64,000 nucleotides of DNA, taken from assembly GCA_024698145.1 (NCBI GenBank), contig JAILRO010000023.1, positions 1-64,000 on the forward strand, given 5' to 3'. The notes beneath the pieces were generated by a model. The model was not told the DNA's origin and ran no database searches. It saw only the letters and a program-made list of their open reading frames with translations. Both the position numbers and the translations under genes were made by a program. Source of the stretch: Lachnospiraceae bacterium (GTDB taxonomy: Bacteria > Bacillota > Clostridia > Lachnospirales > Lachnospiraceae). This document shows, piece after piece, positions 25,766-30,089 of the stretch (positions are counted from its first letter, which is position 1; every line of letters starts with the position of its first letter).

Positions 25766-25939
25766 TTGCGTTTTATAGGGGTGTTTCAATTGAGACATAA
25801 AGTATTACAAGATTGAGTAGTAATCTTCACAAGATGTTAACTGTACGTTATCACATATCAAAGAATGAAGATAATATATATAAAATTGCTTGACTAGATA
25901 ATTATTGACGAAGAAAATAGTTGTATGGAGGTGTATTGC

Positions 25940-27370
25940 ATGGCTATAGTTGGGGCGTTTGCGGTTCCTCATCCGCCACTTATAATACCGGAGGTTGGAA
26001 GAGGAAAAGAAAAAGGAATTGCAGATACAATTAATTCTTATGAAAAAGTATCTGAAATGATAGCGGAAATGAAACCGGAAACAATAGTGATTATTACGCC
26101 ACATAGTGTAATGTACTCTGATTATTTTCATATTTCTCCGGGGGATAGCGCTATGGGTTCATTTGCACACTTTGGAGCACCTGAAGTAGGGATAAATGCA
26201 GAGTACGACACAGCATTTGTCAAAAAGCTTTGTGTTCTTTGTGCGGAAAATGAGGTCGATGCAGGAGTTGGTGGTCAGAAGGACCCGACACTTGATCATG
26301 GCACACTGATTCCGCTTTATTTTATAACAAAGAGATACACGGATTTTAACCTCGTAAGAATTGGTATATCCGGATTAGAGCCGGAAGAACATTACCGGTT
26401 GGGAATGATGATTAAACGTGCAGCACAGGAATTAAACCGAAGGGTTGTGTGTATTGCAAGCGGAGATTTGTCCCACAAATTGACACATGACGGACCGTAT
26501 GGCTTTTGTCCGGATGCGGCACCTTATGATAACGAAGTTATGAATGTTCTTGAAAAAGCGGAGTTTGGCGCTCTTATGGAGTTTAATGAACTTAGGCTTG
26601 AAAAGGTAGCTGTGTGTGGGCACAGGGCATTTATCGTTATGGGAGGAGCGCTTGACGGCGTAAATGTCAAGGCGAAACGCTTATCGTATGAGGGACCATT
26701 TGGCGTGGGATATGGAGTTGTAACTTTCAAGCCGGAGGAAGATTCGGATATAGAGGGGCGACATTTTCTTGCGTTACGAATAAAAAAGGAAAATGAAAGA
26801 CGCGCAAAACAAAGAGAGCGTGAGGATATAATTGTACGCCTCGCAAGAAAAACGTTAGAAACGTATATAAGGGAAGGGAGAATTGTTGATTACGAGGAAG
26901 AACTGAAAAGTATTGTTGATGATGATAAACGTGAAGAAGATTTGATAAATCTAATGAAGAACTCGGCGGCGGGGGCATTTGTTTCTTTACACAAAAACGG
27001 CAGATTGAGGGGCTGCATAGGAACGATAATGCCAACCAAGGAAAGGCTTGCGGAGGAAATAGTAGAAAATGCAATTGCTGCAGGAACTAGAGATCCGCGT
27101 TTTGACCCGGTAACAGTTGGGGAGCTGGATGAATTGGATTATAGCGTGGATGTACTTGGAGATATTGAAGAGAACATTTCTGAAGGTGAGCTGGATGTTG
27201 ACCGATATGGTGTCATCGTTACAAAAGGATTTAAGCGAGGACTACTACTGCCGAGGCTTGAAACAATTGATACGGTAAAGGAACAGATATCCGTTGCGAA
27301 GAAGAAAGCGGGAATTGGGGAGAATGAAGAAGTAAACCTTTCGCGATTCGAAGTTGTAAGACATAAATAA
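25940..27370 (+). CDS. LigB-like dioxygenase/MEMO-type domain fused to AMMECR1 (AmmeMemoRadiSam system protein A family)
   Basis: N-terminal AFAVPHPPLIIPEVGRG and GDLSHKL; C-terminal GAFVSLHKNGRLRGCIGTIMPTKERLAEEIVENAIAAGTRDPRF. Confidence 0.88.
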   Translation: MAIVGAFAVPHPPLIIPEVGRGKEKGIADTINSYEKVSEMIAEMKPETIVIITPHSVMYSDYFHISPGDSAMGSFAHFGAPEVGINAEYDTAFVKKLCVLCAENEVDAGVGGQKDPTLDHGTLIPLYFITKRYTDFNLVRIGISGLEPEEHYRLGMMIKRAAQELNRRVVCIASGDLSHKLTHDGPYGFCPDAAPYDNEVMNVLEKAEFGALMEFNELRLEKVAVCGHRAFIVMGGALDGVNVKAKRLSYEGPFGVGYGVVTFKPEEDSDIEGRHFLALRIKKENERRAKQREREDIIVRLARKTLETYIREGRIVDYEEELKSIVDDDKREEDLINLMKNSAAGAFVSLHKNGRLRGCIGTIMPTKERLAEEIVENAIAAGTRDPRFDPVTVGELDELDYSVDVLGDIEENISEGELDVDRYGVIVTKGFKRGLLLPRLETIDTVKEQISVAKKKAGIGENEEVNLSRFEVVRHK

Positions 27371-27543: not shown

Positions 27544-27673
27544 TTATTTTTAATTTAGCATATGCAATCTTTGCAGAAAATTGGATTACGACATTGGAAA
27601 AGATTGGTTTATGTTGTTTTATGTTGGAAAACGTTGGAAGAAGGAAATGTGAGTACAAAGGAGTATCAAAAAT

Positions 27674-28456
27674 ATGGCAATAAAATTACGTGTTTTGGTG
27701 GTCGAGGATGACGCTGTTGCATGCAAATGCTTCGTTAGTTGCGCCCTGGAAATGGGGACGATTGAGATTGTCGGGTGTACAAATGATTCCGACAAAGGGC
27801 TTGAACTTGTGCGCGAGTGCCTGCCTGATGCAGTCATTCTTGATTTGGAACTAAACGAAGGAAAAGGAAGCGGAATTGAGTTCTTGAATGGTCTAAATAA
27901 TCTGGGGCTTGGCTATAAGCCATTCGTATTGGTTACAACCAATAACTTAAGTTCTACGATTTATGATTACGTCAGGAAGTCCGGTGCAGGCTTTATAATG
28001 AGCAAGCAGAAGAAGGACTATTCCGAGAAAGCGGCATTGGAATTCTTAATCACGATTAGCGATTCTATTGTTTGTAACAGTGACAATTCTGATGAAAGGC
28101 AATCATTTGTACAAGAGGTGGAAGAAAACAGTGAGAAAGCCCTTAAAAGCAGGATATACAGAGAATTAGATCTTGTCGGTATCAGCCCGAAGTTCTTGGG
28201 ATACGATTATCTTGCGGATGCAATCTATCTTGTTATGAATGATGAAAAAGAAAAGATGTTGCAGATAATAGGAGAGAAGTATAAAAAGACTGATGCGAGC
28301 GTCGAGAGAGCCATGCAGACCGCTATCAATAAGGCATGGCGCAGCAATGATATTGACGAATTGCTAGAGTATTATACTGCAAGAATAAGCTCGGACAAGG
28401 GCGTTCCAACGTTGATGGAGTTTATATACTATTATGCGAAGAAGTTGAAAATGTAA
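27674..28456 (+). CDS. Response regulator with REC domain and Spo0A-C-like DNA-binding domain
   Basis: REC VLVVEDDAV...AVILDLEL; C-terminus VGISPKFLGYDYLADAIYLV...TDASVERAMQTAINKAW...KGVPTLMEFIYYYAKKL matches the Spo0A C-domain pattern. Confidence 0.85.
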   Translation: MAIKLRVLVVEDDAVACKCFVSCALEMGTIEIVGCTNDSDKGLELVRECLPDAVILDLELNEGKGSGIEFLNGLNNLGLGYKPFVLVTTNNLSSTIYDYVRKSGAGFIMSKQKKDYSEKAALEFLITISDSIVCNSDNSDERQSFVQEVEENSEKALKSRIYRELDLVGISPKFLGYDYLADAIYLVMNDEKEKMLQIIGEKYKKTDASVERAMQTAINKAWRSNDIDELLEYYTARISSDKGVPTLMEFIYYYAKKLKM

Positions 28457-28463
28457 AAAGAGT

Positions 28464-28487
28464 CCCCCGAACCGAATAGTTCGGGGG
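28464..28487 (-). terminator. Terminator oriented for minus-strand transcription
   Basis: CCCCCGAA...TTCGGGGG; the U-tract (AAAAAGAGT on +) lies on the minus-strand side. Confidence 0.75.
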
Positions 28488-28496
28488 TGATTGTGA

Positions 28497-28550
28497 TTAG
28501 TGACGGCCTGTTGATAAGTCACGTAAACGTCTCCAAAATTCTTCCCACAT
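28497..28550 (-). CDS. 17-aa amphipathic micro-ORF MWEEFWRRLRDLSTGRH
   Basis: ATG to TAA in 18 codons; SD AAGGAGGTGA (plus-strand 28556-28565) 5 nt before ATG; terminator directly downstream. Not in the supplied ORF track. Confidence 0.55.
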   Translation of the reverse strand: MWEEFWRRLRDLSTGRH

Positions 28551-28583
28551 ACTTGTCACCTCCTTAAAAAAAAGGATAGTTGG

Positions 28584-28643
28584 ATGAGGGTGGGATTAAT
28601 ATTGGAGCGAGGAGGTGATTATTGTTGGTTTGTCTTACTTTGA
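28584..28643 (+). CDS. 19-aa putative leader peptide MRVGLILERGGDYCWFVLL before the histidine kinase
   Basis: ATG 28584 with AAGGA upstream; stop TGA overlaps the kinase SD (TGAGGAGG). Confidence 0.3.
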   Translation: MRVGLILERGGDYCWFVLL

Positions 28644-28652
28644 GGAGGAAAA

Positions 28653-30089
28653 ATGAATTCATTTACAAAGAATATTGGGATAATTATTTGTGGATTATAT
28701 ATTTTTTTAAAACTACAAAATCAAAAGCCAACCAAAAAATATATGGTTGGCTTGATTATGTTCATTTTGTTTTCGTCAGTAGGGTCAGTGTGTATAGATT
28801 TATACATGCCAATACTGACAGATTTTTCAATAATAGTAGGTTCTATTATTTTTGTGCATTTATCATCTTCTGAAAGTATTGGTAGAGATTATCCAATAAA
28901 AATGTGGATATCTTTTTCCTTAAGTTACGTATTATTTATAATTTCAGTTTTAATTACAACAATAGCATTGTTTTCGGTTCCTAGAAAGTGTTTTGATTTG
29001 TATGCTCAGCCGATTTCGTTGATAATACAAATATTACTGATGATTGCTTTGTTTAAAATAAAGCGAATAAAAACAGGGGTGAAGATATTAGATAAACGTA
29101 TATATTCTGTGCCTGTAGCGATAATTGGAGCGGGAATAATTTTTCTGATGACACTGATTAACTTGAATACTTATAGCAAGTTATACATTATTGTGTATAC
29201 ATCCTTTTATTTCTTGTCTATTCTTATTTTCGTCTACTGGCGCGCATCTATTACCCGTTCTTACCTGGAAAGACTTGGTAACCGCAATATTGCATCACTC
29301 AATGAGGAACTATTACAGAAGGATGAGTATATAAAGAAACTTGAAGCGGACGTGGAGCGCTTGGGCAAGATTGTACATAGGGATAACAAGCTTGTTCCTG
29401 CAATGGAGATGGCGGTTGAAAGATTTATTATGGATGAGTCCGGAGAAATGTCAGTAGGAAGTGAGCTGCTGGAAGAACTTAGGAAGATGTCAAAAGACAG
29501 AAAGGGCTTGGTTACTACGTCTGTAAATGCTGCCGAGCCTAGCGTTAACACAGGTGTTGCTAAGGTAGATAATTTAATAACTTATATGAGTGAGAAGGCA
29601 GCAAATGAGGGGATAACCCTTAAGGTTACGGTAGGTATTGATATCAAAGAGTTGTTTGATAAGTGTATTGATGAGGAATCATTTTGTACCTTGTTGGCGG
29701 ATTTGCTCGACAACGCAATTATTGCGACTAAATATAACAATGCAAGAGATGTATTGCTGGATATGAGTATGATTAAGAAAGCACCGGCAATTCATATATT
29801 TGACTCGGGAATATCATTTGATAAGGAAGTGCTTATCAACTATGGAATTGAGCAGACAACCACGCATGGCGATGACGGCGGAAGTGGTATAGGTTTGATG
29901 CAGACATATGAGATACTTGCAAAATGCAGAGCCAGCATTTTCATAGACGAGTTTTCATCAGGTCTTTACACTAAGAAGATATCCGTTGTGTTTGACAGAA
30001 AGAGACAATTTCTGCTATATACACCAAGAGAGGATAGCGAAGTATCTTTCTTAAAAAGGCGTGCCGACCTTACGGTTGTAAGAAAATGA
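28653..30089 (+). CDS. Polytopic GHKL-domain sensor histidine kinase (AgrC/ComD-like)
   Basis: N-terminal TM domain; IVHRDNKLVPAMEMAVERFI phosphoacceptor-like block; LLDNAIIATKY N-box, DGGSGIGLMQTYEI G-box. Confidence 0.88.
   Translation: MNSFTKNIGIIICGLYIFLKLQNQKPTKKYMVGLIMFILFSSVGSVCIDLYMPILTDFSIIVGSIIFVHLSSSESIGRDYPIKMWISFSLSYVLFIISVLITTIALFSVPRKCFDLYAQPISLIIQILLMIALFKIKRIKTGVKILDKRIYSVPVAIIGAGIIFLMTLINLNTYSKLYIIVYTSFYFLSILIFVYWRASITRSYLERLGNRNIASLNEELLQKDEYIKKLEADVERLGKIVHRDNKLVPAMEMAVERFIMDESGEMSVGSELLEELRKMSKDRKGLVTTSVNAAEPSVNTGVAKVDNLITYMSEKAANEGITLKVTVGIDIKELFDKCIDEESFCTLLADLLDNAIIATKYNNARDVLLDMSMIKKAPAIHIFDSGISFDKEVLINYGIEQTTTHGDDGGSGIGLMQTYEILAKCRASIFIDEFSSGLYTKKISVVFDRKRQFLLYTPREDSEVSFLKRRADLTVVRK

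Follow-up and report, generated by a model that had tools for sequence, protein, structure and literature searches.

The window, i.e., the whole 64,000-nucleotide stretch analyzed here, harbors a leaderless 17-codon ORF placed between the genes of a Spo0A-related response regulator and a polytopic membrane histidine kinase, in the opposite orientation to both. The regulator, the antisense peptide and the kinase probably form a signaling cassette in which the peptide signals to, or modulates, the kinase. Since the same arrangement, each time with a different Trp-rich peptide, was found in dozens of gut Clostridia, it probably represents an undescribed peptide-signaling module; a search of the open literature for such a peptide-kinase system retrieved no description, which is not proof of absence. 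The features of the locus are as follows.

27603 to 27636, plus strand: four tandem (A/G)TTG boxes at an exact spacing of 10 bp, upstream of the regulator gene
27674 to 28456, plus strand: response regulator of 260 amino acids, REC + Spo0A_C (Pfam; Spo0A_C E-value 5.7e-23)
28464 to 28487, minus strand: intrinsic terminator-like hairpin CCCCCGAACTATTCGGTTCGGGGG, then ACTCTTTTT, 3′ of the peptide ORF
28497 to 28550, minus strand: peptide ORF MWEEFWRRLRDLSTGRH plus stop codon, leaderless, 17 amino acids by translation
28556 to 28565, minus strand: Shine-Dalgarno (SD) sequence AAGGAGGTGA, with the 5-nt spacer CAAGT to the ATG
28561 to 28576, minus strand: weak local hairpin TCCTT-loop-AAGGA, the 3′ arm of which is part of the SD
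28579 to 28627, plus strand: weaker boxes in the peptide-kinase gap (GTTG at 28579, GGTG at 28589, ATTG at 28601, and GTTG at 28624)
28653 to 30089, plus strand: membrane histidine kinase of 478 amino acids, about seven N-terminal helices followed by the kinase core
28653 to about 29222, plus strand: kinase sensor, residues 1–190, with helices from the AlphaFold model

The 17-residue minus-strand ORF with a full SD that the initial annotation had proposed was borne out by the translation, by the SD site, whose duplex with the anti-SD has an energy of −13.4 kcal/mol, and by its recurrence far above chance. Its orientation opposite to both plus-strand neighbors was likewise confirmed. The hairpin and tail of the terminator are real, but the stem begins 9 nt after the stop codon and not 8 as first described; it is the only terminator-like site within 28300–28900. 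By position, residues W2, F5, W6, L9, and L12 do share one face of the helix, but the helical hydrophobic moment was not unusual for this peptide when judged against its own composition (p = 0.29). The pattern AGGAGG-N4-9-ATGTGGN6TTYTGG occurs once in the 2.89 Mb genome, where the cassette is present as a single copy. The absence of the gene from the annotation is attributable to its small size.

The recurrence of the ORF was evaluated in 80 named loci containing a related response regulator and in loci from 396 genomes of the family, which yielded 73 examinable pairs of a Spo0A_C response regulator and a seven-helix kinase from Lachnospiraceae, Ruminococcus, Oscillospiraceae, and Family XIII. 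Under a strict rule (SD, ATG or GTG start, 11–23 codons, and at least one Trp), a minus-strand ORF was present in 53 of the 73 gaps and a plus-strand ORF in one, against 0.4 in dinucleotide-preserving shuffles. With weaker SDs, TTG starts, and Trp-poor cases added, some of them judged by eye, the count of SD-preceded leaderless ORFs of 11–21 codons rose to 64 of 73. The link between a short peptide gene and the flanking two-component system, as originally noted, is thus real and conserved. The ORF is nearly always antisense to the regulator-kinase pair, and lies on the sense strand in two termite-gut Oscillospiraceae loci (L051, MWAAFWADVWATFSFLMSG; L087, MWAAVLATVRWFFSF). The low-scoring regulator loci L119–L128, which resemble genuine Spo0A or more distant relatives and served as a negative control, contained no ORF on the minus strand; a weak plus-strand match in L125 was put down to chance. 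As a coding unit, the peptide gene is conserved at this position across several families of Clostridia.

A search within the same genus gave kinase matches in 13 of 26 genomes, including that of the window. The initial annotation had named a broken ORF beside intact neighbors in close relatives as the finding that would speak against the gene; all 13 same-genus kinase loci retain an intact SD-preceded minus-strand ORF, which answers that question in favor of the gene. The same-genus gap peptides are listed below.

L003, minus strand: MSYWEKVWKLLRDLSTGRH
L004, minus strand: MLKKWWDNFWIIMAGR
L005, minus strand: MLEKWWKLVSDMLKGH
L006, minus strand: MFEQWLKAVWCLMTCH
L007, minus strand: MWNDFWETVRRILNGR
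L008, minus strand: MWKEIWRLMCDIIAGR
L009, minus strand: MLEKWWEVVWHLFTGR
L010, minus strand: MFQRWLEVVLTLYTGRY
L015, minus strand: MWDKFWRSIYSIMTGRH
L016, minus strand: MSHLERFWKIICHLYSGR
L017, minus strand: MSDFERWWRYLNKLLSGR
L018, minus strand: MWDRFWDMVQYLMTGRRK

No peptide ORF was found in nine of the 73 pairs, four of which have almost no gap (L056, L057, L079, and L085) and five a different intergenic region (L062, L084, L088, L090, and L095); hence, a peptide at this place is not indispensable to the kinase. A search for the peptide elsewhere at these nine loci revealed nothing convincing. The five loci with a different intergenic region, mostly Ruminococcus MAGs, share another gap motif, AAGGTGATAT...ATATCACC...CAAAG, possibly a different element at the same place. 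Phage and plasmid records gave only distant Spo0A-like matches with <60% identity. Some records, such as L029 and L092, are labeled Alistipes or Muribaculaceae and carry a Clostridia-type module, which suggests mislabeled or mixed MAGs.

The 61 gap peptides analyzed all differ in sequence and are rich in Trp (14.6%), Phe (13.5%), and Leu (12.1%). All are 11–21 residues long, most of them 13–17, with net charges from −2 to +3. Cysteine is present in 10 of the 61 and at no conserved position. None contains a double-glycine leader, the sequence starting directly at the helix. The helical moment exceeded that of composition-matched shuffles (p < 0.05) in 25 of the 61 peptides, where three were expected, and the excess peaked at 100 degrees. 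The synonymous bias that the initial annotation had suggested looking for in relatives was found. The LRD codons of the window (TTA CGT GAC) and of its sister species (CTT AGA GAT) differ by five nucleotide changes and no amino acid change, an outcome shared by 6 of 30,618 possible ones, and over 16 peptide pairs, not all of them independent, 22 changed codons were synonymous against 13.9 expected (sd 3.3).

The kinase diverges in a manner that depends on the domain. Pfam HATPase_c and GHKL are sub-threshold in the window kinase and were detected in 51 and 38, respectively, of 52 family members. Foldseek with the kinase model returned matches to kinase cores and none for the sensor domain. The window and its closest relative, a sister species (L003/L130), are syntenic over ∼33 kb. 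Most neighboring proteins are 86–99% identical and the regulator is ∼70% identical, and within the kinase the identity falls from 97% in the core to 30% in the sensor; the nucleotide sequences cease to align at 28547, where the peptide starts, and align again from 29222, where the sensor ends. The sister-species sensor, as judged from the alignment, looks like a domain replacement or the result of hyper-diversification. Similar values were obtained for L058/L069 (core 81%, sensor 30%, regulator 90%) and L094/L097 (core 64%, sensor 29%, regulator 91%), and both the sensor and the peptide of L097 resemble those of L054/L055 and not those of L094, its closest relative by regulator. Patterns of this kind are typical of signal-receptor polymorphism. 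A partial Mantel test of peptide against sensor showed no correlation, matched-identity bins and a neighbor-incongruence test gave equivocal results (16 vs. 13 and 12 vs. 7), and global peptide-sensor coevolution across the family was not significant, perhaps owing to saturation of the sensors. The last nine residues are the same in the window peptide and the sister peptide despite sensors of only 30% identity, which limits any claim of strict specificity.

The window regulator is related to Spo0A by domain composition, and does not qualify as a predicted Spo0A equivalog, scoring 90.3 bits against TIGR02875 (cut-off 200). Upstream of the regulator genes of the family, 97 pairs of TTTTTGTTGG-like boxes were found at a spacing of 10, where 1.5 were expected and the maximum in 200 shuffles was 6. 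The peptide-kinase gaps contained 17 such pairs on the same strand against 0.9 expected. Because the gap sequences had been read before the box pattern was chosen, the shuffles control for composition and not for that choice; the much stronger signal at the regulator promoter came to light afterward. Spo0A itself provides a precedent for binding at sites one helical turn apart, as tandem 0A boxes. The presence of tandem boxes at both the regulator promoter and the peptide-kinase gap makes autoregulation of the regulator likely. No other site in the genome of the window has three exact boxes in a row. Regulon searches gave 14 matches vs. 14 in the control with three boxes, and 31 vs. 15 with two boxes in two genomes, most of them, the regulator promoter apart, inside ORFs; no shared target beyond the regulator promoter emerged from these searches.

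The transcript of the peptide gene appears to be structured as well. In the window, the local SD hairpin is not significant (z 0.3), and a longer fold of the whole transcript (28445–28620) is stronger (z −4.8). Across the family, a hairpin upstream of the ORF usually ends in the SD, with a mean z of −2.55 and 66% of values below −2 when scored against shuffles of the upstream part. Pairing of the SD itself is close to that in shuffles (0.77 vs. 0.72); it is therefore the stability of the hairpin that stands out. The arms differ in sequence among loci and stay complementary (e.g., L058, L037, and L043). The SD-closing hairpin also accompanies both sense-strand copies of the ORF, and so belongs to the peptide transcript and not to the kinase leader. 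Of 61 family ORFs, 22 have a terminator-like hairpin 3′ of the stop codon, where mononucleotide shuffles give 0.4. Ahead of the kinase gene, the plus strand contains a second AGGAGGTGA (28612–28620) that is complementary to the peptide SD region; TTG starts in a different frame come after it (28612–28627).

Among the functions first put forward, a peptide signal or a membrane-acting effector is the best reading, and an antisense regulator of the regulator mRNA was rejected, as the terminator precedes the end of the regulator gene and sense-strand cassettes, hairpin included, exist in the two Oscillospiraceae loci. In the proposed mechanism, the regulator would bind the tandem repeats and thereby control both its own gene and the promoters located in the peptide-kinase gap. 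The peptide, a short Trp-rich amphipathic helix with no leader, would reach the membrane through an unlinked exporter or from inside, and there bind the seven-helix sensor domain and change phosphotransfer to the regulator. Owing to the 5′UTR hairpin that ends in the SD, the signal is probably translated weakly or only under certain conditions. A self-reinforcing, strain-specific response would result, with a function like that of CSP-ComDE or AIP-AgrCA. It is about as likely as not that this extends to a widespread, undescribed class in gut Clostridia, in which leaderless Trp-rich helices of 11–21 residues, encoded in the regulator-kinase gap with a hairpin-masked SD, are species-specific ligands of fast-diverging seven-helix kinases with a Spo0A-like autoregulator as output.

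The neighborhood of the module bears on how the peptide might act. No conserved genes were found beside it across loci apart from scattered ABC transporter ATPases, and neither a linked exporter or protease nor a recurring AgrB-type processing gene was detected there. As no exporter is linked, there is room for an intracellular role, in which the peptide would stay in the producing cell and, bound to the membrane, serve the kinase as an accessory or feedback modulator, in the way that PhoQ is modulated by the small proteins MgrB and SafA. The lack of a leader, the strict linkage to the kinase gene, and a hydrophobic, aromatic composition suited to membrane insertion from inside all agree with such a role. 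It is nevertheless considered unlikely, since peptide and sensor diversify fast, which is more in line with specificity between strains than with a housekeeping subunit, and 11–21 residues are too few for a membrane span with flanking charges. The peptide could also be an output of the system, a surfactant-like or antimicrobial helix comparable to delta-hemolysin and the phenol-soluble modulins under two-component control. This appears quite improbable; although the Trp-rich helices are amphipathic, the regulator boxes adjoin the peptide gene, and the arrangement of genes is reminiscent of agr with hld and its divergent P2/P3 promoters, there is one very short copy per locus of mixed net charge (−2 to +3), and the fast divergence of the kinase sensor would be left unexplained.

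Two further explanations concern the nature of the ORF itself. A short hydrophobic ORF with an SD-masking hairpin is also what the membrane toxin of a type I toxin-antitoxin pair would look like; however, an Rfam scan of the window detected two tRNAs only and no antitoxin RNA family, and the constant position and linkage to one regulator-kinase family are atypical of type I loci, making this origin very improbable. Even less probability, close to negligible, is assigned to the absence of any translated peptide, in which case the SD would only be complementing an anti-SD of the kinase leader and the palindrome would have produced the ORF as a by-product. The second AGGAGGTGA copy in the kinase leader of the window would be in keeping with this, but most relatives show the ORF and not this plus-strand copy; 53 ORFs were found against 0.4 in shuffles, the substitutions in the ORF follow a synonymous pattern, and the sense-strand copies have the same type of ORF.

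As a putative signal acting on the kinase, the peptide can be compared with several known systems. CSP is a short linear peptide that forms an amphipathic helix. Like the CSP-ComD-ComE/Blp systems of streptococci, the module has a short linear peptide of similar length and amphipathic helical character, encoded beside a polytopic GHKL-type kinase (∼7 helices; Pfam GHKL sub-threshold in the window protein), and a response regulator with autoregulation, here predicted from the boxes. Unlike them, it has neither a double-glycine leader nor a linked ComAB-type exporter, its regulator output is Spo0A_C and not LytTR, and the peptide gene is antisense to the pair. With staphylococcal agr (AgrBDCA, RNAIII/hld), it shares a polytopic GHKL-type kinase whose sensor diverges fast, divergent promoters that enclose regulator sites (predicted here), and a specificity-block pattern of variation, and it differs from agr in lacking an AgrB-type processing gene and a Cys/Ser thiolactone precursor (AgrD) and again in having Spo0A_C in place of LytTR. 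AgrC and ComD, both known peptide receptors, have a polytopic sensor with a GHKL-type core (PMC8895600). The SIP/LCP-RopB systems likewise have leaderless, hydrophobic, aromatic peptides that carry their own SD beside a putative receptor gene and are sequence-diverse between species (PMC10518010, PMC6565748). LCPs, however, are mostly 8–10 residues long and bind cytosolic Rgg/RopB receptors in families of Bacilli (PMC10518010), whereas the peptides of the module are helices of 11–21 residues in Clostridia that adjoin a response regulator and a membrane kinase, with no cytosolic Rgg/RopB (RRNPP) receptor. Like Spo0A, the regulator consists of REC and Spo0A_C with the SVERA recognition-helix motif, and the boxes spaced by 10 bp recall tandem 0A boxes; unlike Spo0A, it is adjoined by a dedicated kinase, and the box is TTTTTGTTGG and not TTGTCGAA. 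The module follows the logic of CSP-ComDE and agr and is leaderless like LCP/SIP, but is without a defining feature of each. It is best described as a putative variant of the peptide-sensing two-component systems.

Few peptide signals are known from Lachnospiraceae, Ruminococcus, and their relatives, which are dominant in gut and rumen. A family hidden from annotation by its size would supply ∼60 candidate signal-receptor pairs with predicted operators. If the leaderless peptides do act on the membrane kinase, two-component systems would join cytosolic receptors as targets of leaderless signaling, and a defined peptide could be named as the input of a Spo0A-type regulator. Close to the module of one Family XIII genome (L081:761–3808) are a C39-peptidase ABC exporter and a protein carrying a double-glycine-like motif (...TEGGATV...), which could be a bacteriocin set controlled by the module. 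In the window, the module is adjoined by a gene at 25925–27370 (plus strand) coding for a LigB/Memo-like domain fused with an AMMECR1 domain.
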